Part shown: piece by piece, positions 4,408 through 55,705 of the stretch
How positions within the stretch are numbered: the first letter of the stretch is position 1
Layout of the letters: every line of letters starts with the position of its first letter
Source of the DNA: Candidatus Poribacteria bacterium
GTDB lineage: Bacteria > Poribacteria > WGA-4E > WGA-3G
Length of the DNA stretch: 64,000 nucleotides
Direction: 5' to 3'
NCBI GenBank assembly: GCA_022827625.1
Contig: JAJEIE010000038.1
Location: 62,001-126,000, forward strand
The notes under the pieces: model-generated
Told to the model about the DNA's origin: nothing
What the model saw: only the letters and a program-made list of their open reading frames with translations
Databases searched by the model: none
Program-made: the position numbers and the translations under genes

Positions 4408-4549
4408 TAGTTGTCAGTTCTCAGTTGTAGGTTATCGGTAAAGAGGTGCTTCTGTAACAATCTACCCCAGTTTGAATTATGCCAAGATGCTGTGAATTGA
4501 TACATCAAGACTCCTTAACTGACAACTGACAACCGATAACTGATAACTA
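4408..4549. repeat. MITE-like element with inverted heptamer arrays (trkA-trkH)
   Basis: This repeat fills almost the whole trkA-trkH spacer. The left end reads as successive heptamers TAGTTGT, CAGTTCT, CAGTTGT, AGGTTAT, then CGGTAAAG. The right end on the opposite strand reads TAGTTAT, CAGTTAT, CGGTTGT, CAGTTGT, then CAGTTAAG. The core contains GTAACAATCT (4454-4463) and aligns with the core of the element at 23152-23278. No protein is encoded. Confidence 0.75.
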
Positions 4550-4554
4550 CTAAA

Positions 4555-7283: not shown

Positions 7284-7774
7284 ACTTTGGACCAGATACC
7301 GGAACGGATGGTAACATCATCACAACGACGATTGATAAGGTCGTCAATTGGGGACGAAAGAACTCCCTATGGCCGATGCCGTTCGGTACGGCTTGCTGTG
7401 CAATTGAGATGATGGCGACTTTGGCTTCCAAATACGACCTTTCTCGATTTGGTTCCGAGGCAATCCGTTTTTCCCCGCGCCAATCCGACCTTCTCATTGT
7501 CTCCGGCAGAATTTCCATCAAAATGATGCCGGTCTTGAAACGTATTTACGACCAGATGCCCGACCCGAAGTGGGTCATCTCAATGGGAGCATGCGCTTCC
7601 TGCGGTGGTGTGTTTGACACCTATACCCTTATCCAAGGTGTTGACCAGTTCATTCCTGTGGATGTCTATATTCCCGGATGCCCACCACGTCCCGAAGATC
7701 TCATTGATGCGGTGCTACAGGTACAGCAAAAGATTGATAGTGGTGCCTTACCTAAAGGTGTTTCTCCCTATTAA
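7274..7774 (+). CDS. nuoB: NADH-quinone oxidoreductase subunit B
   Basis: This peripheral-arm subunit carries iron-sulfur cluster N2, which passes electrons to quinone. It has 166 residues. The N2 ligands are visible: the adjacent cysteines in [10 protein letters not shown], the cysteine in MGACASCGG and the one in PGCPPRPE. The start at 7274 is supported by AAAGGAGG seven bases upstream and by homology beginning at MGLDFGP; an upstream in-frame ATG at 7253 lies inside nuoA and is not preferred. After its stop a structured leader element separates it from nuoC. Confidence 0.95.
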
Positions 7775-7780
7775 ATCCGA

Positions 7781-7910
7781 GCTGCCCTTTCGTTGTCAGG
7801 GCAGTATTCTAATCGTTAACAAACCTTTTCTAACCTAAAACTGGTTTCTTAACAATTTTAGATCGGGGTGGACAACGGACACCCCGCTCAGATGTAATCG
7901 CTAAAAAATT
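7781..7910 (+). promoter_or_regulatory. Two-hairpin leader element ending at the nuoC start codon (copy A)
   Basis: The nuoB-nuoC spacer contains hairpin 1, CTGCCCT/AGGGCAG (7782-7788, 7798-7804), with loop TTCGTTGTC. Hairpin 2 is CGGGGTG/CACCCCG (7864-7870, 7880-7886) with loop GACAACGGA. The two loops are complementary at 8 of 9 positions. Each hairpin is followed by a related tract (CAGTATTCTAATCGTTAAC and CAGATGTAATCGCTAAAA), and the second runs directly into the nuoC ATG without a Shine-Dalgarno sequence. A homologous copy precedes nuoK. Confidence 0.75.
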
Positions 7911-8459
7911 ATGAATGAAGAGAAAGCAGTCGAAGAACAGTCGAAACCTCTTGTCCTTGAAAAGTTAGAGGCAGCTCACGCAGACGCGCTTTTAGCACAG
8001 GATGAAGTCCGCGGGACCGCTGTCGTTGTTGTGCGGAAAGAACGCGCCTACGCCGTTCTGGAATATCTGAAAACAGATCCCGAACTCGCCTATACCTATC
8101 TTGTCGATGTCACAGCAGTAGACAATTCGCGGATGGAATCGGAGTTAATGCAGTTCGACTATGCAAGATTCATGGTCGTCTATCAACTCTATTCCTATCA
8201 AGGGCAGTGCCGCGTTCGGGTCAAAGTCCCTGTGCATGAAAACGACTTGAGCATCCCATCTGCTACAGGCTTGTGGCGAGCCGCAAACTGGTTGGAACGT
8301 GAAACTTATGATATGTTCGGTATCCATTTTGAGGGGCACCCCGATCTCCGTCGGATCTTAATGCCAGACGACTTTGAGGGGTACCCACTCCGTAAGGACT
8401 ACCCACTCCGAGGGCGCGGTGAGCGCGAACGGTTCAATTTTGACAAGCAGAATGTGTGA
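7911..8459 (+). CDS. nuoC: NADH-quinone oxidoreductase subunit C
   Basis: This is a peripheral-arm 30-kDa-type subunit of complex I, 182 residues. The signature [20 protein letters not shown], then [15 protein letters not shown], is diagnostic. It is a stand-alone NuoC, not fused to NuoD. No Shine-Dalgarno sequence is visible because the leader element runs up to the ATG. A MITE-like repeat separates it from nuoD. Confidence 0.95.
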
Positions 8460-8461
8460 AC

Positions 8462-8599
8462 AGGCTGTCAGCAGTCGGGTCGGTTTGCTACGCAAACCTT
8501 TCAGCATACAGTTAACAGACGGTTCTCGGCATATAAAATCTTCGCAATTACGACAGATCCCTTAACCGATAGCCGATGGTTTCCGATAGCCAATAACCA
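8462..8599. repeat. MITE-like element with inverted heptamer arrays (nuoC-nuoD)
   Basis: The left end reads AGGCTGT, CAGCAGT, then CGGGTCGGTTTG. The right end on the opposite strand reads TGGTTAT, TGGCTAT and degenerate units, ending CGGCTAT, CGGTTAAG. Near the left end lies a perfect stem GGTTTGC-TAC-GCAAACC. It has the same architecture as the elements at 4408, 21596 and 23152. Confidence 0.65.
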
Positions 8600-8617
8600 A
8601 CATAAAAGGAGCATTTT

Positions 8618-9814
8618 ATGCAAAGTGGGTTGGAACGCGCGACAGGCGAGAAGATGGTTCTCAACTTCGGTCCGCAACATCCTGCAACGCACGGCACCCT
8701 TCGCATCGTGTTAGAACTCGACGGCGAATCCATTTTAAAGGCAACGCCGCACGCCGGTTACCTTCACACAGGATTTGAGAAACTCGGTGAACACTTGGAT
8801 TACAACCAATACATCGTTGTAACGGATAGAATGAACTATCTTTCACCGCTGTCGAACAATTTCGGGTATGTGCTTGCAGTCGAGCAATTGCTCGGTATTG
8901 AGGTGCCGAAAAGGTGCCAATACATCCGTCTTTTGATGGCTGAACTCTCAAGGGTGGCTGATCATCTGCTCTGGCTGGGAACGGCAGCATTGGATTTAGG
9001 GGCATTTTCAGTATTCCTCTACAGTTTCCGTGAACGTGAAAAATTGTACAGTATCTTTGAAAAAACGACAGGCGCGCGGTTGACAACCAGTTACACACGT
9101 GTCGGCGGGGTCCTCCGAGATCTCTATCAAGGCTGCGAAGCAGATGTCCGGCAATTCATTACCGACTTCCCGAAGGCACTGCGGGAGACGCACACCCTGC
9201 TCACCCGGAATCGTATCTGGATGGATCGCACGAAAGGCGTTGGTCCTATTTCAGGTGAAGACGCGATTAACTACGGTTTGACGGGTCCCTGTCTCCGGGC
9301 AACCGGCGTTGCGCACGACCTTCGCAAGGCTGAACCCTACTCGAGTTACGATGAAGTGACGTTTGATGTGCCCGTTGGAACCAACGGTGATGCCTATGAC
9401 CGTTACCTCGTGCGCATGGAAGAAATGATTCAGAGTTGCGGTATCATTGCCCAAGTCCTTGATAACATGCCTGATGGACCGGTCAACTCCGAAAATAACA
9501 AGGTTATGCTCCCGAACAAAGAGGATGCTTACGGGCATATTGAGGGCTTAATCCATCATTTCAAAGTTATTATGGATGGACACGGCGTGGAGGTCCCAAA
9601 AGGCGATCACTACTGTGCAACTGAATCCCCGAACGGAGAACTCGGATTTTATATCGTCAGCGACGGGAGCGGAACGGGTTACCGCATCCGTATCCGTCCG
9701 CCGAGTTTCTTGAACTTCCAAGCACTACCGCACATGTTGGAGGGTGGCATGGTCTCTGATACTGTGGCTGTGTTAGGAAGTCTCAACGTTATTGCCGGAG
9801 AGTTAGATCGCTAA
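8618..9814 (+). CDS. nuoD: NADH-quinone oxidoreductase subunit D
   Basis: This is the 49-kDa-type quinone-site subunit of complex I, 398 residues, starting at an ATG preceded by AAAAGGAG. Early motifs FGPQHPATHGTLR and PHAGYLHTGFEK contain the conserved quinone-site histidine. The C-terminus GGMVSDTVAVLGSLNVIAGE followed by LDR is the family ending. Downstream the nuo order is interrupted by three small genes before nuoE. Confidence 0.96.
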   Translation: MQSGLERATGEKMVLNFGPQHPATHGTLRIVLELDGESILKATPHAGYLHTGFEKLGEHLDYNQYIVVTDRMNYLSPLSNNFGYVLAVEQLLGIEVPKRCQYIRLLMAELSRVADHLLWLGTAALDLGAFSVFLYSFREREKLYSIFEKTTGARLTTSYTRVGGVLRDLYQGCEADVRQFITDFPKALRETHTLLTRNRIWMDRTKGVGPISGEDAINYGLTGPCLRATGVAHDLRKAEPYSSYDEVTFDVPVGTNGDAYDRYLVRMEEMIQSCGIIAQVLDNMPDGPVNSENNKVMLPNKEDAYGHIEGLIHHFKVIMDGHGVEVPKGDHYCATESPNGELGFYIVSDGSGTGYRIRIRPPSFLNFQALPHMLEGGMVSDTVAVLGSLNVIAGELDR

Positions 9815-9822
9815 ATCCAAAG

Positions 9823-9917
9823 CCTGAACCGGGATTCTTATGATTTTAAGATTAACTATGATTATAGACATATACAATCACGGAGAATCTGATAATCTTA
9901 TAAATCACAGTTCAGAT
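9823..9917. repeat. Imperfect palindromic repeat between nuoD and VOC gene
   Basis: The left half starts CCTGAACCGGGATTCTTATG. The right half on the opposite strand starts TCTGAACTGTGATTTATAAG. The two halves resemble each other over about 40 bases and form a long imperfect hairpin with interspersed GATT words. This style of GATT-rich palindromic spacer is seen in several unrelated bacterial genomes. Its function is unknown. Confidence 0.55.
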
Positions 9918-9931
9918 TTAAGGAGGATTAA

Positions 9932-10273
9932 ATGGAACTCAGTGGCGTTATGCTCTTTGTCAAAGACATGAAGGGTATCATCGCATTTTACAGGGATGTC
10001 ATTGGATTGACTCCCGACGAGGATCAGCCGTTTCCAGAACACCGGTTCTTCCGTTTTAAGGCAGGTGCTTGCACGTTGTGCCTCCATAGTGCCAGCAAGC
10101 CCAACGAAGGAAGACAAAAACTGATGTTTCACGTTGAAAGCGTGAATGCTGTTCATCAGCACATAAAATCGAAAGGGAAACGATTACGGAAACTGGAAAA
10201 TAACGATGGACATGCCATTTTCGACATCCGCGATCCAGAAGGCAACCGCATTCAGTTTTACGGGAATTACTAA
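9932..10273 (+). CDS. VOC (glyoxalase/bleomycin-resistance fold) family protein
   Basis: This is a 113-residue single-domain protein of the vicinal oxygen chelate fold, with AAGGAGG seven bases before the ATG. The N-terminal strand-helix VMLFVKDMKGIIAFYRDVIG and the C-terminal IFDIRDPEGNRIQFYGNY are typical; the last strand supplies the usual metal-side acid position. The actual substrate cannot be told. It lies inside the nuo cluster between nuoD and nuoE on the same strand, so it is probably co-transcribed with complex I without being part of it. Confidence 0.85.
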   Translation: MELSGVMLFVKDMKGIIAFYRDVIGLTPDEDQPFPEHRFFRFKAGACTLCLHSASKPNEGRQKLMFHVESVNAVHQHIKSKGKRLRKLENNDGHAIFDIRDPEGNRIQFYGNY

Positions 10274-10307
10274 AACACACGATGTAAGATAAACCTTTTC
10301 GTAACCA

Positions 10308-10541
10308 ATGCACTTTGAAATCATTGGCACAATTGAAAATATTGAAACGATCGCTGTAGGTAGGCGCATCCGTGAAATTCAGAGGCTTCGTAAACAATAC
10401 GGTTCTGGGAGATGGCGGAAACTTAAAGGTATCGCCTATATTCGCCTAACGAAAGGTAGTATCCATAAAGCAGAGGTTCATTGGTATGAAGCGCATGGAA
10501 TTGGTAAAAAAAAGATGAAAATTAAACGATTTTTGGACTAA
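10308..10541 (+). CDS. Small conserved basic protein, unknown function
   Basis: This is a 77-residue protein, rich in basic residues, with no recognised domain name. The sequence IETIAVGRRIREIQRLRK...GRWRKLKG and the ending EVHWYEAHGIGKKKMKIKRF give it a compact, mixed alpha/beta look; similar short proteins occur widely in bacteria (from memory). There is no clear Shine-Dalgarno sequence before the ATG at 10308. It is followed 4 bases later by another small gene, and the two probably form a pair. Toxin-antitoxin function is conceivable but not supported by any visible motif. Confidence 0.7.
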   Translation: MHFEIIGTIENIETIAVGRRIREIQRLRKQYGSGRWRKLKGIAYIRLTKGSIHKAEVHWYEAHGIGKKKMKIKRFLD

Positions 10542-10545
10542 AACT

Positions 10546-10794
10546 ATGGAAAAGAAACGATTAGAACCCCAATTTATGCTTTGCATTGAAAACGGCGGTT
10601 GTGAAGACATAGAGCAGCGAAAACTTTACCAAATTTTACCTGATGAAAAAGCGGCTCGTGAAGGCTATCTGCGAGTCGTTGATGAATCTCAGGAAGACTA
10701 CTTGTATCCCGAATCTTATTTCATTTTTGTTGAACTGCCTCGCAAAGTACAGGAGGCATTCGTAGCAAAGGAAAATCTAATAGATGTCAGATGA
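10546..10794 (+). CDS. Small conserved acidic protein, unknown function
   Basis: This is an 82-residue acidic protein containing CIENGGCEDIEQRKLYQILP, then DEKAAREGYLRVVDESQED and YLYPESYFIFVELP. The pattern (short beta-rich module with a VVDESGEDYLYP-like core) recurs in small uncharacterised bacterial proteins. It starts 4 bases after the preceding small basic gene, and its 3' end overlaps the nuoE start by 11 bases. The overlap suggests its translation is coupled to nuoE. Function is not known. Confidence 0.7.
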   Translation: MEKKRLEPQFMLCIENGGCEDIEQRKLYQILPDEKAAREGYLRVVDESQEDYLYPESYFIFVELPRKVQEAFVAKENLIDVR

Positions 10795-11302
10795 GCTCAT
10801 TCAAATTGAAACGCCTTTCGCGTTCAACGAAGAAAATCAGCGTGCGTTCGACGCGTTGATAGGGCGGTATCCGATTAAAGAAGCAGCAATGCTGCCAACG
10901 CTCCACCTCGCACAAAAACAGGCAGGCTACATTACGCCTGCTGTTATGAAGTACGTCGCAGAACAACTTGAAGTCTCCGTGATGAAGGTCAAAGATGTTG
11001 TTACTTTCTATCCGATGTTCTTTGAAGAACCGGTAGGCGAGTACGTCATTCGGGTCTGTCATACACTGCCTTGTGCCTTGAGGGACTGCAAAGTTGTTTT
11101 GGACCATCTCAAGGAGAAGTTAGGCACAGATGTCGCCTCCGAAACCAATCTTGCGAAAGGTACGACTGCTGACAGTAAGTTCACGCTCATGAAGGTGGAA
11201 TGCCTTGCTTCGTGCGATGTCGCCCCAGTTATCATGGTAAATGATGATCTATATAAGAATTTAACCCCGGAAAAGGTTGATGAAATCTTAGACAATTTGT
11301 AG
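10784..11302 (+). CDS. nuoE: NADH-quinone oxidoreductase subunit E
   Basis: This is the thioredoxin-like [2Fe-2S] subunit of the NADH-input module, 172 residues. Cluster N1a ligands are visible as C-x4-C in VCHTLPC and C-x3-C in CLASC. The helical N-terminal part has the usual LPTLHLAQKQAGYIT motif. It begins inside the preceding small gene, and nuoF follows after 10 bases with AGAGGAG before its ATG. It forms the N-module with nuoF and nuoG. Confidence 0.95.
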   Translation: MSDELIQIETPFAFNEENQRAFDALIGRYPIKEAAMLPTLHLAQKQAGYITPAVMKYVAEQLEVSVMKVKDVVTFYPMFFEEPVGEYVIRVCHTLPCALRDCKVVLDHLKEKLGTDVASETNLAKGTTADSKFTLMKVECLASCDVAPVIMVNDDLYKNLTPEKVDEILDNL

Positions 11303-11312
11303 AGGAGAAAGT

Positions 11313-12788
11313 ATGATCGAAGAAAAACGAATTCTCTACGAGCATCTGGATGTGCCTGATATTAACACGTTCGATGTCTTTCGCCAATACGATGGCTACA
11401 CCCGCTTTGAAAAGGCTATCGCCGAATATCAACCAGAAGATATTGCTAAAATGGTGATGGATTCGGGGTTGAAAGGGAGAGGCGGTGCCGGATTTTCGAC
11501 GGGTTTGAAATGGAGCTTCGTTCCCAGAGATATAAAGCCGTGTTACCTGTGTTGCAACGCCGATGAAAGCGAGCCAGGAACGTTCAGTAACCGTTACGTT
11601 TTAGAAAAAAATCCACATCTGTTGATTGAAGGTATCTTGATTTGCTGCTACGCGATGGGTATCGAGACGACTTACGTCTATATCCGCGGTGAATTCACCC
11701 TCGGAAAGAAGATGTTGGATGCCGCTATCAAAGAGGCTTATGAAAAGGGGTACCTCGGAAAAGATGTTCGCGGTACAGGACTCAACATTGACATCTACAC
11801 ACACCCCGGTGCGGGTGCTTATATCTGCGGTGAAGAGACAGGTTTGATTGAATCGCTTGAGGGGAAACGCGGACAACCCCGTAACAAACCACCGTTTCCC
11901 GCGGTTGAAGGCGTGTTCGGGAAACCGACGGTCGTCCAGAATGTCGAGACGCTGTGTAACCTACCTTTCATTGTCGGTAACGGTGTTGAATGGTACACAC
12001 AGATGGGACCGACGTACGCCGATACACGTGCCAATCCGCCGACCCCGGATCCCAATACCGGTACGAAACTCTACTGCATCAGTGGTGATGTTAACGAACC
12101 GGGTGTTTATGAACTTGAACTCGGATTGACATCCACTGAACTCATTGAGGTCGCAGGCGGTTTGCGCGGTGAAGAGGTGAAAGCGGTGATACCCGGTGGG
12201 AGTTCTGCCCCGATTTTGACACACTATGAGTTGGACACGCGGCTCGACTTTACTTCACTCACACTCGCTAAATCGATGCTCGGTTCGGGCGGTATTATCG
12301 TGATGAACGAGACCCGAAATATCGTCGATTGCCTGCTCAATATCATGAAGTTCTATGCGCATGAATCGTGTGGACAGTGTACGCCGTGCCGTTGGGGTAC
12401 ACCGTGGGTGCGTGATATTGTCCAACGCATTGCCGACGGAAACGGACGCAAAAGCACCATCACGCGTCCGAAATTCGGTGTTGCCGAAAACGGGAGATGG
12501 GGCGATACGGGTGAAACTGAAGAAATTTATGAAGACTTAGACCTGCTGGAAAGTGTTGCTAACAACATCGCAAATGTAGACACGATGACCTGGAACACGA
12601 TTTGCGTCTTCGGTATCGCTGTCTCGTGGCCAGCCGTGAGTTATATGCGCAAATTCCGTCCTGAGTTTGAAGCCGCTATCCGAGAAGGTAAACTCGTTAC
12701 CTTATCTGTTGCCGAAGCCACAGTCCCACCGGAGGAGAACTACGCGTATCAACAGCGATTTGTTCCCAAAGAGTTCGCTGACCTGTAG
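11313..12788 (+). CDS. nuoF: NADH-quinone oxidoreductase subunit F (FMN/NADH-binding)
   Basis: This subunit binds NADH and FMN and carries cluster N3. It has 491 residues, longer than the common 420-450. The NADH/FMN glycine-rich loop GLKGRGGAGFSTGLKW and the FMN-site region PGAGAYICGEETGLIESLEG are present. The N3 ligands appear in ESCGQCTPCRWGT plus a late cysteine (TICVFG). The extra length comes mainly from an acidic insertion just after the N3 motif (around GVAENGRWGDTGETEEIYED) and a longer C-terminus. It belongs to the N-module operon segment nuoEFG. Confidence 0.95.
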   Translation: MIEEKRILYEHLDVPDINTFDVFRQYDGYTRFEKAIAEYQPEDIAKMVMDSGLKGRGGAGFSTGLKWSFVPRDIKPCYLCCNADESEPGTFSNRYVLEKNPHLLIEGILICCYAMGIETTYVYIRGEFTLGKKMLDAAIKEAYEKGYLGKDVRGTGLNIDIYTHPGAGAYICGEETGLIESLEGKRGQPRNKPPFPAVEGVFGKPTVVQNVETLCNLPFIVGNGVEWYTQMGPTYADTRANPPTPDPNTGTKLYCISGDVNEPGVYELELGLTSTELIEVAGGLRGEEVKAVIPGGSSAPILTHYELDTRLDFTSLTLAKSMLGSGGIIVMNETRNIVDCLLNIMKFYAHESCGQCTPCRWGTPWVRDIVQRIADGNGRKSTITRPKFGVAENGRWGDTGETEEIYEDLDLLESVANNIANVDTMTWNTICVFGIAVSWPAVSYMRKFRPEFEAAIREGKLVTLSVAEATVPPEENYAYQQRFVPKEFADL

Positions 12789-12805
12789 GAAGGAAAAATT
12801 AAAAA

Positions 12806-14455
12806 ATGGCATTTATTAAATTAAATGACCTCGAGGTTGAGGTTGAAGATGGAACGAATATAGTTGAGGCAGCGAGGCAACACGGCATCGAGGTCCCTCA
12901 CTACTGTTATCATCCGGGGTTGAGCCGTCCTGCGAATTGCCGAATGTGTCTCGTCGAACCTTACGTTTTCTTTCCGCCTGCTGGCGCAATTGTTCCTGAT
13001 CGGCAACTCGCAACGGGCTGCACAACGACCGTGAGAACAGCACCACCTGATAGAAAACTCGATGGAAAATATGACTTTATTGTTCAAACGGACAGCCCAC
13101 GTGTTAAAAAAGCGCGTGAGGATATTTTGGAATTCCTGCTCGTCCATCATCCGCTCGATTGCCCGGTCTGCGACCAAGCCGGTGAGTGTGACTTGCAAGA
13201 TTTCTCTCACCGACATGGACACGATAAGAGTCGTTACCTTGAAGTCAAAAATGTGCCGCCGAAGAAGGATTTGGGACCGGATGTTCTGCTCTATTCGACA
13301 CGGTGTATTGTTTGTACCCGGTGTATCCGATTCTGTGAAGAGGTTTCTGGCAGTGGCGAATTGGGCTTAATTCACCGTGGTTCTCACGACGAAATTGATA
13401 TTCCACGAAGTCACGATGGAACGCCAATACAGGTGTTAGATAATAAACTCGCAGGAAATGTTGTCGATATCTGTCCCGTCGGTGCGCTAATTAGCAAAGA
13501 TTTCTTGTTTAAATCCCGTCCATGGTTCTTGGAGAAAGCGAATAGCGTCTGCACAGGATGCAGCGTCGGATGTAATATTACAGTAGAATACAAACCCGAT
13601 GGCGTTTACCGGCTGAAACCGCGGTTCCACGGAGATATTAACCAGTATTGGATGTGTGACGATGGTCGCCTCGGTTACCACTATGTGAACAGCGAGGATC
13701 GGCTCCAACTCCCCCTGAAACGGGTTGATGATGAACTCACGCCAACACATTGGGCGGATGCCTTAACTGTAATTACAGAAAAACTATCGGAAGTAGCGGC
13801 TGAGGATATCCTTGTTATCGGCTCCGCACAAGGCACGAATGAAGATAATTACGTTTTACAGCAGTTCGCACACGATGTGCTGCAAACGACCCAGTTAGGC
13901 CTCTTTGGGCAGCTGCCGGGCGAAGAACACAAATTCCCACAATTCAGCATCGAGGCAGATAAGAATCCGAACACAGCGGGCGCGCGAACGATACTCGGTT
14001 CTGCGAACGGCAATAACGTTTTAGAAGGTGATGCGCTTTGGGAAAAGGTTTCCGGGGCAAAAGTCGTTTATCTCGTCAGCGGTGCGCCGGAACGTCCGCT
14101 TGAAGATGCCGAGAAATCGGCATTAGAAAGCGTTGACTTCCTCATCGTGCAAGATATTCTGCCTTCAGAAGTTACAGAATTAGCAGATGTGGTGCTACCC
14201 GGGACGACTTTCGCAGAAAAAGATGGGACCTTCACGAATTCAACCGGCTGGGTCCAACGGATTCGCAAGGCGATTGATCCCCCCGGTGAAGCGCGAGCCG
14301 ATTGGGAAATCACGCAGCAGCTTGCCAAGCAGTTGGGTGGTGAGATGAACTACCACTTCGCCGGTGAGATTGCTCTCGCTATCGCAGAAAACGTACCGGG
14401 TTACGGGGACGCGACGCATCAAAAAATTGGGGATGCGGGAATTAAGTTAACCTAA
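12806..14455 (+). CDS. nuoG: NADH-quinone oxidoreductase subunit G
   Basis: This is the iron-sulfur subunit of the N-module, 549 residues, shorter than the E. coli protein of about 900 because the molybdopterin-fold part is reduced. The N-terminal [2Fe-2S] motif is around HYCYHPGLSRPANCRMC. Cluster N5 is in HHPLDCPVCDQAGEC and N4 in CIVCTRCIRFC with a later DICPVGAL. Cysteines CTGCSVGC plus a downstream WMCDDGR match the optional N7 cluster. The C-terminal half keeps DILPSEVTELADVVLPG, typical of the molybdopterin oxidoreductase fold. It starts after AGGAAGG with a 12-base A-rich spacer. Confidence 0.95.
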   Translation: MAFIKLNDLEVEVEDGTNIVEAARQHGIEVPHYCYHPGLSRPANCRMCLVEPYVFFPPAGAIVPDRQLATGCTTTVRTAPPDRKLDGKYDFIVQTDSPRVKKAREDILEFLLVHHPLDCPVCDQAGECDLQDFSHRHGHDKSRYLEVKNVPPKKDLGPDVLLYSTRCIVCTRCIRFCEEVSGSGELGLIHRGSHDEIDIPRSHDGTPIQVLDNKLAGNVVDICPVGALISKDFLFKSRPWFLEKANSVCTGCSVGCNITVEYKPDGVYRLKPRFHGDINQYWMCDDGRLGYHYVNSEDRLQLPLKRVDDELTPTHWADALTVITEKLSEVAAEDILVIGSAQGTNEDNYVLQQFAHDVLQTTQLGLFGQLPGEEHKFPQFSIEADKNPNTAGARTILGSANGNNVLEGDALWEKVSGAKVVYLVSGAPERPLEDAEKSALESVDFLIVQDILPSEVTELADVVLPGTTFAEKDGTFTNSTGWVQRIRKAIDPPGEARADWEITQQLAKQLGGEMNYHFAGEIALAIAENVPGYGDATHQKIGDAGIKLT

Positions 14456-14467
14456 GAAGGAGAAACT

Positions 14468-15655
14468 ATGGAAAATTTACCATTCAGCGTTTTAATCCTT
14501 AGCTCAATCGTTAAGATTCTTTTCATCGCGCATCTGCTAATTATCGGCGTAATGGCAATGATCTGGGCAGAACGGCGGGTGAGTGGATGGATGCAGGATC
14601 GGCTCGGACCGAATCGGGTTGGCTTCCAAGGAATTTTACAGCCAATCGCTGATGGGATTAAGTTCCTCTTTAAGGAAGATCTTATCCCGGATCATGTGGA
14701 TAAACCGCTGTATGTACTTGCACCGGCAATGGTCTTGATACCGGCACTGGTTACAATTGCAGTCGTGCCGTTTGGGAGTTCTATCACGGTCCTCGGACAC
14801 GAAATCTCCCTCCAGGTGGCGGATATCAACATCGGTATTCTGTACATCTTAGCGATAACTTCGCTTGGTGTGTACGGCGTTGTCCTGGGGGCTTGGGCAT
14901 CTAATAACAAGTATTCGCTTTTAGGCGGTCTACGTTCGTCAGCACAGATGATTAGCTACGAATTGACTCTGGGATTGGCGATTATCGGGGTGCTGATGCT
15001 GACGAGTTCGCTCCACCTTCGAGCCATTGCTGAAGCGCAAGGCGCGTATCCGTGGCATTGGAATTTCCTGATCCATTTTCCTGCCTTTTTAGCGTTCACC
15101 ACGGCGATGTTTGCAGAAACAAACCGCTTACCGTTTGACCTCGCGGAAGCCGAGCAAGAACTTGTGGCGGGCTATCATACCGAATACAGTAGCATGAAGT
15201 TTGCGATGTTTTTCATGGCAGAATATATGCACATGATTGTCGGCTCTGCTGTGACGGTGACGCTTTTCCTTGGTGGCTGGCACTTTTTCGGCTTAGAAAA
15301 TATAGGGGGTCCCGTGTGGAGTGGCGTTATCTCATTCGGCATCTTTTTTGTCAAAACAGCCATTTTCCTATTCGTGTTCATTTGGGTACGCTGGACGCTC
15401 CCACGGTTCCGGTATGATCAACTTATGAACTTCGGTTGGAAATTTTTGTTGCCTGTTACGTTAACTTCAATTGTTGTAACTGGCACCCTATGGATAATAA
15501 CTGGCTCTCGCTTGGTAGTAGGTATCGGCAATGCAGTTGCTGGGTTTATTGTTGTATCTATTGTCGCAGGATTGCTTGTGATGGATGCCCCTAAACCGGC
15601 AATGCAAGATAGTGACAATCGGCTTACACCGACTGCTCTCGACGCAATAGAATAG
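14468..15655 (+). CDS. nuoH: NADH-quinone oxidoreductase subunit H
   Basis: This is a membrane subunit that forms the quinone chamber at the junction with the peripheral arm. It has 395 residues and about eight or nine hydrophobic helices. Diagnostic motifs are AERRVSGWMQDRLGPNRVG, LQPIADGIKFLFKED, AETNRLPFDLAEAEQELVAG and YHTEYSSMKFAMF. It is preceded by AGAAGGAG. The next gene is nuoJ rather than nuoI, which is unusual because nuoI normally sits between H and J. Confidence 0.96.
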   Translation: MENLPFSVLILSSIVKILFIAHLLIIGVMAMIWAERRVSGWMQDRLGPNRVGFQGILQPIADGIKFLFKEDLIPDHVDKPLYVLAPAMVLIPALVTIAVVPFGSSITVLGHEISLQVADINIGILYILAITSLGVYGVVLGAWASNNKYSLLGGLRSSAQMISYELTLGLAIIGVLMLTSSLHLRAIAEAQGAYPWHWNFLIHFPAFLAFTTAMFAETNRLPFDLAEAEQELVAGYHTEYSSMKFAMFFMAEYMHMIVGSAVTVTLFLGGWHFFGLENIGGPVWSGVISFGIFFVKTAIFLFVFIWVRWTLPRFRYDQLMNFGWKFLLPVTLTSIVVTGTLWIITGSRLVVGIGNAVAGFIVVSIVAGLLVMDAPKPAMQDSDNRLTPTALDAIE

Positions 15656-15666
15656 GAGGCGTACGA

Positions 15667-16194
15667 ATGAATGCAGAACAGATTCTATTTATTCTCTTTG
15701 GAGCGGTATCGCTGATTGGCGCAGTTGCTGTCATCTCATTTCGACATCCGATTTATAGTGCGCTCTCGCTGGTCGTGACCTTTTTCGCACAAGCAGGGCT
15801 TTTTCTGTTGTTAGGTGCACACTTTGTTGCCGCTGTACAAGTGATCGTTTATGCGGGTGCCATTATGGTACTCTTCCTCTTTGTGATTATGCTGCTGAAC
15901 CTCGGAACACTCTCGGTGAAAGGAGCCATCGGCGGAAAACTAAAGGGATTTGCGATAATTTTGGGTATCCTCTTAGCCATTGAAGGCATCTATATCGCTA
16001 CAAATGTCCTCAATAATACCGCGATTGCCTCTGCCCAACCAGCAACGGCAGCTCCAAACACAACGACGTACGATATTGGCGAACTCCTGTTCAGCAAGTA
16101 CCTCTTACCCTTCGAGGTTACCTCGCTGATTTTGTTAGCGGCATTGATTGGGGTTATTGTCTTGGTGAAACGTTCTTCTAACGATTCAATCTGA
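15667..16194 (+). CDS. nuoJ: NADH-quinone oxidoreductase subunit J
   Basis: This is a membrane subunit of complex I, 175 residues and five hydrophobic segments. The conserved FRHPIYSALSLVVTFFAQAG and the region AVQVIVYAGAIMVLFLFVIM with the pi-bulge helix motif are present. The last helix is followed by the short cytoplasmic tail VKRSSNDSI. GGAGG lies 8 bases upstream of the ATG. It is followed by the second copy of the two-hairpin leader and then nuoK. Confidence 0.95.
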   Translation: MNAEQILFILFGAVSLIGAVAVISFRHPIYSALSLVVTFFAQAGLFLLLGAHFVAAVQVIVYAGAIMVLFLFVIMLLNLGTLSVKGAIGGKLKGFAIILGILLAIEGIYIATNVLNNTAIASAQPATAAPNTTTYDIGELLFSKYLLPFEVTSLILLAALIGVIVLVKRSSNDSI

Positions 16195-16323
16195 GCTGCT
16201 GCGTCCGTTGTCCCTGCAGTATTGTAATCGTTAAAAAGACTTTCATAACCTAAAGCAAGTTTCTAAACAATTTTAACCCGTTGCCGACAACGGAGGCAAC
16301 GCCCAGATATAGTTATTAAAAAT
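16195..16323 (+). promoter_or_regulatory. Two-hairpin leader element ending at the nuoK start codon (copy B)
   Basis: This spacer is homologous to the nuoC leader. Hairpin 1 has outer pairs CTGC/GCAG (16196-16199, 16216-16219) around the loop TCCGTTGTC (16204-16212). Hairpin 2 is a perfect CGTTGCC/GGCAACG stem (16279-16285, 16295-16301) with loop GACAACGGA (16286-16294), identical to copy A. The two loops are exact reverse complements. The stem differs from copy A at four base pairs, all compensated. The tail CCCAGATATAGTTATTAAAA runs into the ATG with no Shine-Dalgarno sequence. Confidence 0.75.
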
Positions 16324-16623
16324 ATGGAATTACAGTATTACCTCATTTTAAGCGCGCTTCTGTTTACAACAGGGGTAATTGGTGTTCTTGTCCGTAGAAA
16401 CGCCATCATCATCTTTATGTGTATTGAACTGATGTTGAATGCGGCGAATCTCGCCTTCGTAGCAATCAGTCGTAGCTTGGGTGAGGCGACTGGACAAGTT
16501 TTCGTTTTCTTTGTGATGGCTGTCGCTGCCGCAGAGGTCGCGATTGGGCTTGCGATTATTGTAAGCGTCTTCAAGCATCGTGAAACGATTAATGTGGACG
16601 AAGTTAATTCGTTGAAAGGATAA
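16324..16623 (+). CDS. nuoK: NADH-quinone oxidoreductase subunit K
   Basis: This is a three-helix membrane subunit of complex I, 99 residues. Conserved acidic helix residues occur in [13 protein letters not shown] and in the [11 protein letters not shown] segment; these glutamates form part of the proton path linking J/K/N. The start ATG directly follows the structured leader element. It is separated by 4 bases from nuoL. Confidence 0.95.
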
Positions 16624-24443: not shown

Positions 24444-24570
24444 TATAGTAAAGTCCGAAAATAAGTGGGCACACCACGATAGATTGTCCATACTATACGT
24501 TCGTAGGGGCTGGGTAACCCAGCCCTATGTCCCTCTACCGGGTGTATAAATAATTACGGGCTCTACTATA
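24444..24570. mobile_element. MITE with TATAGTA-type terminal inverted repeats and TA ends
   Basis: The ends are TATAGTAAAGTCCGAAAATA on the left and, on the other strand, TATAGTAGAGCCCGTAATTA on the right; these are imperfect terminal inverted repeats of about 20 bases. Inside lies a GTAG-footed hairpin (24503-24525). The gatA leader, which lacks this insertion, reads straight from CCAGAGACGGTTAGACT into TAACCGAAAACC. This indicates insertion at a TA dinucleotide, the target preference of IS630/Tc1-mariner elements. No transposase is encoded. Confidence 0.65.
24503..24525 (+). repeat. REP-like hairpin with GTAG foot (inside MITE)
   Basis: GTAG (24503-24506) is followed by the perfect palindrome GGGCTGGGT-A-ACCCAGCCC (24507-24525). 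It shares only the GTAG foot, not the stem sequence, with the other hairpins in this window. Confidence 0.6.
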
Positions 24571-24667
24571 ACCGAAAACCACCGCGAAACGAAATTGTGA
24601 GTGATTAGCGAACAATTTGTCTTAGCCTTACATTGTGGAGCGGTGCCCAGATTTAATAGTTAAAAAT

Positions 24668-26902
24668 ATGGAACAGCAGCTGAACCTCCCCATCATTGGA
24701 ATGCATTGCGAAAACTGTACAAGCACCATCACACGGCACCTTAAAAAGATGGATGGCATACTTGCTGCAGAAGTCAGCCTGGCAACCGAATATGCTGCTG
24801 TTACCTTCGATACAACGACCCTTAGTGAAGCTGCTATTGTCAATAAGATCCGAGACCTCGGTTTCGATGTTGTTGATGAAGACCAAGAAGACGCAGTCCG
24901 CGCTGAGGAATCCCAACGGCAAAAACGACAATTCACTGTCGGGATAATCTTCACGCTCCCACTTTTTCTTCTCAGCATGGGCAGAGATATGAATCTGATT
25001 GGGGCGTGGGCATCAGCAAACTGGGTTAACTGGCTAATGTTCGGTATGGCGTTACCGGTGCAGGGTTACGTCGCTTGGGACTATTACATCGGCGGTGCTA
25101 AAGCTTTACGCAACCGATCCGCCAATATGGATGTACTCGTCGCTATGGGTTCATCCGTGGCGTTTTTCTATAGCCTCGCTGTAACGATTGCATTAGGCAC
25201 CGATGCAGGGGCACGCTTTGGAACCCACGTCTATTTTGAGACATCCGCAGTTATCATTACATTAATCAAGTTAGGAAAGCTGCTTGAAGCGCGCGCCAAA
25301 GGTAAGATAAACGCAGCCCTCAAAAAACTCCCCCAACTTTTCCCGACAACAGCGTGCCGCTTACAAAACGGCGAAGAACAACACATCCCTATTGAACAGG
25401 TTGGCGTGGGAGATGTCCTGCTTGTCCGTCCCGGCGAAAGTATTCCTGTTGATGGTGTGGTGCAAAGCGGCAAAAGCGCCATTGATGAAAGCGTCTTCAC
25501 CGGAGAAAGCCTCCCCGTAGATAAGACCCCGGGTGATCCTGTGACTGCGGCGACGATGAACCAGAGTGGCATGCTCACAATAGAAGCCACACATATCGGA
25601 GCCGAAACAGCCCTTGCACGTCTTGTCCAATTGGTACAAACAACGCAGCAGGGCAAGCCTCCGATCCAACGCGCTGCTGACGCAGTCACAAACGTGTTTG
25701 TGCCTGTTGTTACTGGGATTGCCGTTGTGACGTTTCTTGTTTGGTGGTTTCTTGTTGGAGCGGGGTTCACCCCGGCAATGCTCCGCTTAGTTGCAATCCT
25801 CGTCACAGCCTGTCCTTGTGCATTGGGACTCGCCACGCCAACCGCCGTTATGATGGGAACCGGTATGGGGGCGCAGCGCGGTATCCTCTTCCGAGACGGT
25901 GAAGCACTGGAACGCGCTGGAGACTTAACCACAATCGTTCTCGATAAAACAGGCACCTTGACAGAGGGGAAACTCACGCTCACCGATATTCTTACGAATA
26001 AAGACGCATCGGAACTTTTACAACTCTCTGCTGCCGCGGAGCGTGGCAGTGAACACCCCATTGGTAAAGCAGTCGTTCAAGCAGCTGAGGAACGTGGGCT
26101 TGACATCGCGACACCCAGTGCATTTAAAGCGGTCGTTGGACACGGTATCACTGCGCAGGTCGGTAAAAACAGCGTTGTGATTGGTAACCTCTCCTTAATT
26201 CAACAACATAACATCCCGACAAGGACCTTTGAAACAGCGGCGGAACGCCTACAAACAGAGGCGAAAACTGTGTTATGGGTTGCTGTCGATGGACACATCG
26301 AGGGACTCCTCGCCGTTGCGGATACGTTGAGACCGGAAGCAGCAGCAACTATTACTGATCTCCAGAGACTCGGTTGTGAAGTGGTAATGATGACGGGCGA
26401 TAACCGTAGCACTGCCGATGCGATCGCCGCTGCCGCGGGAATTCATAATGTCATGGCGGAACTCCGGCCCGAAGACAAAGCCGAGGCTATCAAGACCTTA
26501 CAAGCAGCACATGAGAACCTCGTCGCGATGGTAGGTGACGGTATTAACGATACCCCCGCATTGGCACAAGCCGATATCGGCATCTCACTCGGCACAGGCA
26601 CCGATATTGCCAGGGAGACGGCACACGTGACGCTCATGCACAGCGATCTGCGTGGACTTCCTGAGGCAATTCGGCTCAGCCGCGCCACGATGCGGACGAT
26701 TAAACAGAATCTTTTCTGGGCGTTTTTTTACAATGTGCTTTTAATTCCGATTGCAGCAGGCGCATTGTATCCGTTATCTTTTGTGCCGAATATGCTCCGG
26801 GAACTACACCCGATGCTTGCGGCGTTTGCGATGGCGTTTAGTAGTGTGTCTGTGGTGTTAAATAGTTTGCGGCTACAATGGAAAAAGAGTATTCATCTTT
26901 GA
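24668..26902 (+). CDS. copA: Copper-exporting P1B-type ATPase
   Basis: This inner-membrane heavy-metal pump has 744 residues from the ATG at 24668; that start is chosen because the leader element ends there and the sequence upstream is repeat. One N-terminal HMA domain carries the metal site GMHCENC. Transmembrane helices flank the actuator loop [14 protein letters not shown]. The intramembrane CPC motif is in [13 protein letters not shown], the phosphorylation site in DKTGTLTEG, the SEHP motif of P1B ATPases in [10 protein letters not shown], and the hinge in [21 protein letters not shown] plus the HMA motif point to Cu+ (possibly Ag+). No copper regulator is adjacent. Confidence 0.92.
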
Positions 26903-34741: not shown

Positions 34742-34764
34742 CACAAACTAAAAGTTTGTGCTAC
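34742..34764 (-). repeat. REP-like hairpin CACAAACT/AGTTTGTG with GTAG foot
   Basis: CACAAACT (34742-34749) and AGTTTGTG (34753-34760) form an eight-base-pair stem; CTAC (34761-34764) is GTAG on the minus strand. It lies in the leader before bioB. An in-frame ATG at 34738 within this repeat is therefore not accepted as the bioB start. Confidence 0.65.
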
Positions 34765-34797
34765 ACTGAAATCGTTTGGAAATCCGACGTTAAAAAT

Positions 34798-46234: not shown

Positions 46235-46266
46235 CCTATGCCTTCTATAAAAATTCCTACTTGTAC

Positions 46267-46285
46267 CGCAAACTGTTAGTTTGCG
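46267..46285. repeat. Hairpin CGCAAACT/AGTTTGCG
   Basis: CGCAAACT-GTT-AGTTTGCG at 46267-46285 is a variant of the CACAAACT/AGTTTGTG family in which the outer pair has changed on both sides. The CTAC foot is replaced by CAGC. It lies between the DUF6785-like gene and the enolase-superfamily gene. Confidence 0.5.
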
Positions 46286-46356
46286 CAGCATACACCACAA
46301 ACTATAGTGAATTATGAAAATACATTTACACCGATGACGTGTTTAAGAGGAACATT

Positions 46357-52045: not shown

Positions 52046-52196
52046 CACAAACTAACAGTTTGTGCTACAACAGAACACAAACTAACGGTTTGTGGTACAG
52101 AAGAACACAGGCTAACGACTTCCTATGTTACAGAAGAACACAAACTAACAGTTTGTGGTACAGAAGAGCACAGACTAACAGTTTGTGGTACATTAG
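52046..52196 (-). repeat. Tandem array of five CACAAACT/AGTTTGTG hairpin units
   Basis: Units start at 52046, 52076, 52106, 52139 and 52169, with a period of 30 bases (33 for the degenerate third). Each has CACAAACT-AAC-AGTTTGTG, then G/C-TACA and a GAAGAA-like spacer. The GTAC/GTAG trinucleotide foot follows the stem in each. The last unit overlaps the stop codon of the S41 protease. It lies between that gene and mmsA, in the path of transcription. Confidence 0.85.
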
Positions 52197-54121: not shown

Positions 54122-55599
54122 GAGGAAGTCGCTCCATTGACATGCATCTGCGGTTTCTGCAGATGGTGATCCGTATTTTGCTCGAAAGTATAGGCGACAC
54201 GTAAGACCTTCTCTTCTGCGAAAGGGGCACCGAGGAGTTGTAATCCGACAGGCAACCCATTTTGCACCAAACCACAGGGAACAGAGATACCGGGGAGCCC
54301 GGCATGGCTTGCGGGGGTCGTCATCACATCGCAAAGATACATTTGCAACGGATCTGCGGTGCGTTCGCCTATTTTGAATGCGGGGGTCGGCGAAGTAGGC
54401 GTTGCGATAACGTCCACCTGCTCAAATGCGGCATCAAAGTCAGATTTGATAAGCGTCCGTGCTTTCTGTGCCTTTTTATAATAGGCATCTTGGTAGCCCG
54501 CGCTGAGGGCAAAAGTGCCGAGCATAATCCGACGTTTTACTTCCTCACCGAACCCTTTGCTGCGTGTCTTTTTATACATGTTAATGAGGTCTTCAGGGTT
54601 TTCCTGCCGGTATCCATAGCGCACCCCGTCGTACCGTGCGAGATTCGCGCTGGCTTCGGCGGGTGCGATAATGTAGTACGTCGCGATGGCATATTCGGTG
54701 TACGGTAGAGAGATTTCTTCAACCGTCGCGCCGAGTTGTTCGAGAACAGCGATCGCTGTATGTACGCGGTCTGCGACTTCCGTATCTAACGCCGGTGTGA
54801 AATACTCTTTGGGTATACCGATTTTCATACCTTCTACATCGTTGATCAGGCTCTGCGTGAAATCAGGCACAGGCACATCCACAGAGGTCGCATCCATGGC
54901 ATCGCTGCCACAGATGGCATTGAGCAAGAGCGCGCAATCGGTAACGTCTTTTGTAAAAGGACCGATCTGATCGAGTGAAGAGGCGAATGCGACCAAACCG
55001 TATCGGGAGACCCGTCCGTAGGTCGGTTTCATACCGACGACGCCGCAGAGCGCAGCGGGTTGGCGAATGGAACCGCCGGTGTCTGAACCGAGGGAACAGA
55101 TAGCCGTATCCGCTGCGACGACTGCAGCAGACCCGCCGCTGGAACCGCCAGGGATCGTGTCAAGGTTCCACGGATTGTGTGTAATCTGATACGCCGAGTT
55201 CTCGGTAGACGATCCCATCGCGAACTCGTCCATGTTCGTTTTACCGAGAACAACGACCCCTTGTTCGTGGAGTTTGCGCATGACGGTGGCGTCGTAAGGC
55301 GGGACGAAGGTTTCAAGGATTTTAGAGGCGCACGTCGTGCGCACCCCTTTGGTGCATATTACATCTTTAATGGCAATCGGGATGCCAGCCAAAGGCGGCA
55401 GATCCTCCCCTTTTTGGAACCCTGTATCGGCAGCGTGTGCCTGTTCTAAGGCGAGGTCCTTCGTAAGCGTTAGATAGCCTTTGACATGCGGCTCGACGGC
55501 ATCAATACGGGCATAGAGAGATTCTACCAATGCTACGGCGGTAATTTCGCGAGCCTTGAGTTTCTCGTGTAGGGCGTGTGCGGTCAATTCGTATAACAT
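54118..55599 (-). CDS. gatA: Asp/Glu-tRNA amidotransferase subunit A
   Basis: This amidase subunit of GatCAB supplies ammonia from glutamine for transamidation of Glu-tRNA-Gln (and Asp-tRNA-Asn). It has 493 residues. The catalytic triad lysine is in [13 protein letters not shown], and the serines are in [15 protein letters not shown] and [15 protein letters not shown]. Its start ATG directly follows the leader element (CGTTAAAAATG) with no Shine-Dalgarno sequence. gatC lies upstream; gatB is not in the window. Presence of gatCA implies indirect aminoacylation in this organism. Confidence 0.95.
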
Positions 55600-55705
55600 T
55601 TTTAACGATTTAATCTGGTCACCGTTCCACTTCGTTTCCCGGTGGTTTTCGGTTAAGTCTAACCGTCTCTGGATTATAAAAGAATTTCTAACTATTTTTT
55701 TAAAC
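55600..55705 (-). promoter_or_regulatory. Leader element ending at the gatA start codon (MITE-free copy)
   Basis: On the minus strand the element contains GAGTAAATCGTTTAAAAAAA, CCAGAGACGGTTAGACTTAA, then CCGAAAACCACCGGGAAACG, followed by AAGTGGAACGGTG and CCAGATTAAATCGTTAAAA running into the ATG. CACCG and CGGTG can pair as a short stem. It aligns with the copA leader outside its two insertions, and its tail matches the nuoC and nuoK leaders. Confidence 0.6.

Follow-up and report, generated by a model that had tools for sequence, protein, structure and literature searches.

A dispersed palindromic repeat of Candidatus Poribacteria whose ends often lie on start codons and may serve as gene leaders

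The spacers that precede nuoC and nuoK in a 64,000-nucleotide stretch of DNA from a Candidatus Poribacteria bacterium (contig JAJEIE010000038.1, positions 62,001 to 126,000, forward strand; 'the window' below) are homologous, and represent two copies of one dispersed, quasi-palindromic element of approximately 148 bp. Each end of this element is a module composed of a hairpin, in which the loop is conserved while the self-complementary stem varies, followed by an AT-rich tail that ends in TTAAAAA. Related copies occur in other genomes of the same genus of this sponge-dwelling phylum, and in most copies examined an end falls directly at the ATG of a long open reading frame (ORF). It seems probable that the element is a mobile, dispersed palindromic repeat whose interchangeable modules are locked to start codons and serve as leaders for the genes that follow.

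Two copies of one element precede nuoC and nuoK

The original prediction, made from the two nuo spacers, placed an upstream and a downstream hairpin in each of them, and the coordinates and sequences of these hairpins and their loops agree with what we find. As had been proposed, the two loops are complementary at nine of nine positions in the nuoK copy and at eight of nine in the nuoC copy, the downstream stems of the two copies differ at four base pairs that are changed on both sides, and both spacers end on the ATG (7911 and 16324) with no Shine-Dalgarno sequence. The spacers do hold the element, but its real span is longer (7761-7907 and 16175-16322), and its left ends extend into nuoB and nuoJ, where they supply the stop codons of these genes. 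Bit scores in the following list come from a covariance model (R1) built from 15 copies; both nuo copies were in its training set.

7761..7907, + strand: full-length element of the F1/F1 type in the nuoB/nuoC gap (match C4:69761-69907, 144.6 bits)
7772..7774, + strand: nuoB stop codon TAA, within the left end of the nuoC copy (sequence; element-free loci)
7782..7804, + strand: left hairpin of the nuoC copy, CTGCCCT-TTCGTTGTC-AGGGCAG (sequence; RNA fold)
7864..7886, + strand: right hairpin of the nuoC copy with variable stem, CGGGGTG-GACAACGGA-CACCCCG (sequence; stem covariation)
7911..8459, + strand: nuoC, starting 3 nt past the element (NCBIfam TIGR01961)
16175..16322, + strand: full-length element of the F1/F1 type in the nuoJ/nuoK gap (match C4:78175-78322, 142.3 bits)
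16192..16194, + strand: nuoJ stop codon TGA, within the left end of the nuoK copy (sequence; element-free locus L170)
16196..16219, + strand: left hairpin of the nuoK copy, CTGC..TCCGTTGTC..GCAG (sequence)
16279..16301, + strand: right hairpin of the nuoK copy, CGTTGCC-GACAACGGA-GGCAACG (sequence; covariation)
16324..16623, + strand: nuoK, starting 1 nt past the element (NCBIfam NF004320, alignment from residue 1)

In the layout captured by R1, the outer ends are TTTTTAACGATTnnnTCTGAGC...GCTCAGAnnnAATCGTTAAAAA. Between them are a left hairpin (CTGC...GCAG) whose loop is TCCGTTGTC, a central hairpin that is weak, and a right hairpin whose loop is GACAACGGA. When the genome of origin was searched with the nuoC copy by BLAST, 55 matches were returned, counting both orientations. 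R1 gave 119 matches at E ≤ 1, on both strands because the element is quasi-palindromic, and these merge into at least 74 places. Elsewhere, R1 matches are present in 26 of 38 genomes of the genus and are unevenly distributed. Only 150 of 1561 first-look candidates were scored in the genome of origin and 82 per genome elsewhere, meaning that all these counts are lower bounds and that a count of zero is not proof of absence. At the DNA level the element set of this genome is limited to the genus, with matches in six of 21 relatives, all of them within it. The pattern AATCGTTAAAAANATG occurs 110 times, compared to 15 for the reversed pattern, and in the window the 9-base loop by itself is not enriched (20 matches with at most one mismatch, 17.3 expected). 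Rfam recognized two tRNAs in the window at the gathering threshold and assigned the element to no family; even at E ≤ 1, neither the nuoC copy nor one copy of the second loop family described below had a match.

The modules are interchangeable

By way of the common tail, we traced a second loop family (F2/F3), which carries the loop GAAACGAAGTGGA or GTAATGAAATGGA and the identical tail. A covariance model of these modules (R2), used with stricter filters and 74 candidates scored per genome, found matches in all 38 genomes of the genus, in one of 20 from other genera of the family and in none of 14 from other families of the order. Two such modules reside in the window:

24564..24666, + strand: F2-type module whose loop carries an insert, upstream of a copper/heavy-metal P-type ATPase gene (ATG at 24668; R2 match C4:86564-86666, 62.2 bits)
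55599..55660, - strand: F2-type module upstream of gatA (ATG at 55599, minus strand; R2 match C4:117599-117660, 78.7 bits); its final A doubles as the A of the gatA ATG

A further tail type, F4 (CCGAACCGCAAGGAAANTTAAAAA), follows many hairpins that bear similar kinds of loops, and is found in all 38 genomes at 1 to 166 copies each; the reversed pattern was found in none. Ends of different types are combined within single elements. Among 120 copies, 13 by a loose rule and six by a strict rule are hybrids of F1 with F2/F3 loops, whereas 88 and 73, respectively, have two F1 loops; the loose rule misassigns some degenerate copies. Single modules with no recognizable partner hairpin also exist, as judged by eye. 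At the start of one gene (MKLSLSVRVA...), the right loop is of the F3 type in two species (loci L069 and L283) and of the F1 type in three others (L310, L320 and L337), which reflects either an exchange of loops or separate entries at the same site. The F2 loops at 24564-24666 and in L126, L128 and L108 are enlarged by an insert (e.g. GAAACGAAATTGTGAGTGATTAGCGAACAATTTGTCTTAGCTTTACATTGTGGA), and appear to hold one repeat inside the loop of a second.

Element ends often coincide with start codons and lack Shine-Dalgarno motifs at the usual distance

We examined 60 of the 74 places in the genome of origin, scoring at least 40 bits, and 60 copies from eight other genomes, which are the top of a score list and not a random sample. 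In each set, an ORF of 80 amino acids or longer begins with an ATG at -1 to +3 from an end in 40 of the 60 copies, and ATG positions peak at +1 (26 copies in each set) and at 0 (10 own, 4 other) over a background of 0.34-0.35 per position. Copies are thus not found as often far from starts as at them (80 of 120 are flush), in keeping with the original prediction. One end is flush in 77 of these 80 copies and both ends in three. The modules of the second family behave likewise: 52 of 99 are flush at -1 to +3, 43 of them at +1 (background 0.41), as are 19 of 30 F4 tails, sampled at one copy per genome. Of 58 right-flush copies, 51 have a long upstream frame that extends to the opposite, left end. 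These frames terminate from -7 to +17 (one at +57), and the stop codon is often a TAA or TGA that belongs to the element.

A Shine-Dalgarno-like 4-mer at -15 to -4 is found in none of 83 leaders in the F1 set and none of 52 in the F2 set (four are common to both sets, giving 131 distinct leaders), compared to 18 of 27 hand-picked window genes that carry no element. Genes behind flush ends in the window, named from NCBIfam, are nuoC, nuoK, the copper-type P-ATPase gene and gatA. Elsewhere they include rpsK, hisB, rfaE2, purF, lpxC-fabZ, ilvN, tsaE, gmk, carB and pheT, ten that were selected by hand as recognizable, and we saw no pathway common to the genes named. For these ten as well as for nuoK and gatA, the family profile starts to align no later than residue 16 (at residue 38 for nuoC), which makes the start calls credible.

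Both the flush position and the missing Shine-Dalgarno sequence would also be accounted for if the ends were outward promoters that make leaderless mRNAs, with a -10-like box approximately 10 nt before the AUG setting the transcription start there. At the position required for leaderless transcripts, 18 of 83 F1 leaders reach nine of 12 matches to TTGACA/TATAAT, compared to 2.6% of shuffled sequences. However, only one of 52 F2 leaders does so (shuffles 1.5%), our promoter-search rule finds none in 7750-7930, and a promoter has no need of a covarying stem. The sigma-70 consensus used for scoring may not be that of this phylum. We regard the promoter explanation as quite unlikely.

Two further ideas were considered and set aside. 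Non-standard starts at ATT or ATC junctions are not required at C20:65914, L318, C15:73264, L294 and L308, where the element itself contains an in-frame ATG and may therefore add N-terminal residues. The stem does not convincingly act as a guide matched to the flanking gene: shared 5-mers number 132 of 162 compared to 125.5 on re-pairing (reached in 34 of 300 trials), and shared 6-mers 48 compared to 39.6 (22 of 300). In loci L305 and L334 the junction reads ATA with no in-frame start upstream, and these genes may start further down.

Element-free relatives often carry Shine-Dalgarno starts

Comparison of filled and element-free loci reveals what the element replaces. By nuoC, the closest named relatives are Candidatus Poribacteria MAGs. 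For this gene, 33 further poribacterial loci were available; the element is present in one (L198), and R1 detects it in none of the others among the 31 searched. Of the 32 element-free loci, 21 have a AAAGGAGT-like motif 9-14 nt before the ATG, and there nuoB overlaps nuoC. At filled sites, the element comes after a AAAGGAGT-like motif and extends to the ATG.

For nuoK, 30 of 38 loci were compared and two (G000 and G036) contain the element. Genome G027, whose NuoK protein is identical, has a nuoJ that ends in ESQSEN-stop and an AGGAG site before nuoK; relative to it, the element at the filled site takes the place of the final nuoJ codons and of the spacer, and contains the stop codon. F4-like tails are present in 14 of the other 28 loci, in some cases as tandem copies, and an F2-type module is present in L181. 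For rpsK (30 of 37 loci compared), the two loci with the element both start with an ATG on it, and all 28 element-free loci have GGAG followed by a TTG (25) or GTG (3) start; a weak R1 match is present elsewhere in L363. In all three cases, the filled site lacks the Shine-Dalgarno region that the relatives have. These comparisons span species, and a deletion at entry is for that reason not separable from a later one.

The nuoJ-nuoK spacers of L178, L185 and L189 hold tandem, near-duplicate F4-type leaders before nuoK, indicating repeated insertion or copying at one position. A divergent second nuoK paralogue has the element directly behind it, before the next gene (L313 G030:C332; L295 G036:C123).

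The stems covary and loop-loop pairing is not supported

The original prediction held that the stems covary, and across copies the right stem does so. Double changes are found in six of its seven pairs both in an alignment of 15 copies (A1) and in one of 71 copies (A3), where 93.4% of cells are paired. Covariation extends to every one of the six stem pairs in 24 second-family modules, where 99.3% of cells are paired and double changes number 26 compared to 5.1 in shuffles. The outer ends of the element pair only partly (73-74% of cells). Sense-strand folds are more stable than those of shuffled sequences for both the nuoC copy (z -3.25) and the nuoK copy (z -3.46); of 200 shuffles, none and one, respectively, reached so low an energy. 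The minimum-energy fold of the nuoK copy is one long hairpin that joins both loops, rather than two hairpins.

A folded RNA whose loops kiss, and which thereby controls translation, was the proposal from which this work started. It accords with the conserved loops, the covarying stem and the placement at start codons. However, the loop-loop helix shows no covariation in A3: 90.0% of cells are paired compared to 89.9% in shuffles, with one double change in 639 cells. This test even favours complementarity, since A3 comprises 71 of 84 length-filtered copies and the 13 dropped mostly have F2/F3-type or degenerate right loops, whereas the counts of hybrids and loop types above took in all 120 copies. 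Only 28 of the 88 like-looped copies (loose rule) are fully complementary, hybrids carry unlike loops, and single modules exist. We conclude that a kissing interaction is not supported, and that the loops are complementary because the element is an inverted repeat. With no common pathway seen among the downstream genes either, a kissing-loop riboregulator is very improbable. What persists of the proposal is a conserved-loop hairpin with a covarying stem that is linked to start codons.

Observations that weigh against a leader function

Several findings count against our preferred reading of the modules as mobile leaders. First, many ends have no ATG at -1 to +3 (40 of 120 copies, 47 of 99 second-family modules and 11 of 30 F4 tails); some of these are distal ends, and others have GTG or TTG starts (C33:132243, L327, L330, L332). 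Second, a native Shine-Dalgarno sequence has been retained beside the element in L303, L317, C7:116899 and C23:34958, and in the first three it sits between the element and the start. A purine-rich 4-mer is present in the wider interval -24 to -4 in 24 of 83 and 19 of 52 leaders, and F4 tails contain AAGGA, such that the F4 family is not without a Shine-Dalgarno-like motif. Third, for the whole cloverleaf, 133 of 500 shuffles reach the observed number of covarying pairs and 317 the observed number of pair types; covariation support resides in the right stem and not in the entire structure. Fourth, antisense strands of the nuoC and nuoK copies fold more stably than sense strands (z -5.77 and -5.03). 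Fifth, selection on RNA should yield more G.U than A.C steps, and stem mismatches near start codons comprise six G.T and 12 A.C (away from starts, 10 and six), summed over F1 right-hand hairpins and F2 after dropping stems with fewer than four Watson-Crick pairs. Sixth, F2 stems are fully paired about as often away from a start codon (36 of 40) as next to one (40 of 44), among 84 of 99 modules after 15 with loop inserts were dropped. The last three findings together mean that pairing need not serve translation. Finally, translation from these leaders is something that we infer from sequence.

In the F1 set, 24 of 40 stems away from a start have at least six of seven pairs compared to 46 of 55 beside one, as located by a loose loop finder that misplaces some stems. 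Mismatch, pairing and fold data together neither show nor exclude selection on RNA, and hairpin-templated DNA repair could likewise rewrite both stem arms together. The DNA-level alternative named in the original prediction is hence still viable.

The findings on antisense folding, on stem mismatches and on F2 pairing are what would be expected of a purely selfish repeat resembling REPINs or miniature inverted-repeat transposable elements (MITEs), in which hairpins serve the element's own mobility as single-stranded or cruciform DNA, stem arms change together by templated repair, and flushness arises from target preference or from survivorship in compact operons. Such a repeat would contribute nothing to translation beyond being tolerated. 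Its quasi-palindromic ends, occurrence in both orientations, uneven distribution, hybrids and half elements all fit. On the other hand, survivorship alone could hardly yield a peak at 0 and +1 over approximately 0.35-0.41 per position, there is no target duplication (see below), and housekeeping genes with no Shine-Dalgarno sequence lie behind the element, which implies that at least its end should work as a leader. We consider the purely selfish explanation unlikely, though it is a more serious contender than the promoter explanation.

Mobility and relation to known repeats

Evidence on how the element moves also runs counter to our reading. Direct repeats of at least 5 nt flank six of 120 copies compared to 7.0 on re-pairing, so there is no sign of target-site duplication at this length; 4-nt repeats flank 23 compared to 15.7. 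No partner recombinase was found. Y1 transposases (PF01797) were the family compared across the genus, and although they occur in 37 of 38 genomes, their counts do not follow those of the element: G012 has 16 element copies and no Y1 gene, and G005 has two copies and 12 Y1 genes. The tags GTAG and CGTC are rare near the hairpin feet, with two and three occurrences in total within 8 nt of four feet in 71 copies.

The element has terminal inverted repeats (consensus ends TTTTTAACGATT...AATNGTTAAAAA), is small and dispersed and has no coding capacity, as MITEs do; it also has two inverted hairpin units, like repetitive extragenic palindromic (REP) sequences and REPINs. ERIC repeats resemble it in size range, terminal inverted repeats and presence in operons. 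The same is true of the MITE-like BOX, RUP and Correia elements (PMC3049150). The poribacterial element differs from all four in that no target duplication was found for it and its ends are flush with a start, and often with stop codons. REP/REPIN systems mobilized with TnpA-REP (RAYT) share inverted hairpin pairs, dispersal, non-autonomy and mosaics of end types, but REPs have a GTAG-type tag and are mostly intergenic (PMC8266576), whereas the poribacterial ends are tied to start codons and seldom have the tag.

In position, the closest match is the SAS/ESAS family of cluster K mycobacteriophages, repeats that lie directly upstream of the starts of many unrelated genes, as the ends do here (80 of 120, 52 of 99 and 19 of 30). 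SAS are 13 bp in length and contain AGGAG, approximately half have an extra upstream inverted repeat (ESAS), and a role in translation was suspected (PMC3203893). Our element is instead approximately 148 bp long and chromosomal and has covarying stems with a fixed loop; and where SAS place an AGGAG core at Shine-Dalgarno distance, none of 131 distinct F1/F2 leaders has such a 4-mer. The authors of that study saw little support for an RNA hairpin and preferred a DNA-binding explanation for ESAS (PMC3203893). An operator or cruciform bound by a transcription regulator would suit an inverted repeat whose antisense strand is no worse a folder than its sense strand, but not a location tied to start codons, even inside the nuo operon, and not the absence of Shine-Dalgarno sequences; for the poribacterial element we think it the least probable explanation of all. 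SAS/ESAS are closest by position. Closest in build are REPINs and MITEs, and these two each fail one defining test.

Dicistrovirus intergenic internal ribosome entry sites (IRESs) are alike in role only, being structured RNAs between two frames that end on a start codon. There is no homology and no evidence of a pseudoknot, and the comparison is purely functional. The element is not described in the titles and abstract openings that we surveyed, though a description elsewhere in print is possible. The literature search gave no paper that combines Poribacteria with an RNA motif.

Two other repeats were encountered. One (TGACAACTGACAACTGATAACT and variants) occurs at or near starts (window approximately 4510-4554; L177, L186, L193, L340-L367; some nuoK and rpsK leaders). 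The other is a short palindrome (CACAAACTAACAGTTTGTGGTACA), both tandem and dispersed (window 46261-46292, 52046-52192 and 34742-34765).

A possible mechanism and its implications

Our main argument that the leader works is that the housekeeping genes behind elements should be translated. Each module would then be the working 5' leader of the downstream gene, and ribosomes would start on the flush AUG with no Shine-Dalgarno pairing, perhaps by using the unpaired A/U-rich stretch that the hairpin would keep open. S1-type binding to an A/U-rich stretch is one such mode of initiation. The loop may be recognized by a host factor, by the mobility machinery, or by both, and the element presumably spreads as a non-autonomous mobile element whose junction is either made at the start codon by targeting or trimmed to it under selection. 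A bolder version, which we offer tentatively and suspect may claim too much, is that the genus carries hundreds of mobile, structured start cassettes from several loop families, transposable and IRES-like, which overwrite native Shine-Dalgarno sites, including those of housekeeping genes, and begin translation at an AUG flush with the cassette, with no Shine-Dalgarno pairing involved.

The general picture of interspersed repeats in bacteria places them in intergenic DNA, with no fixed relation to start codons. The poribacterial repeat is tied to starts where a ribosome-binding site is absent, and it appears to be needed by genes such as rpsK, carB, pheT and lpxC. Even if it has no role in translation, so precise a junction would still require some process of targeting or trimming. 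If it does initiate translation, the element would give cells a mobile substitute for the Shine-Dalgarno mechanism, and the variants found in nature, with many copies, dozens of stems and several types of loop and tail, would ease tests of how structure relates to function.

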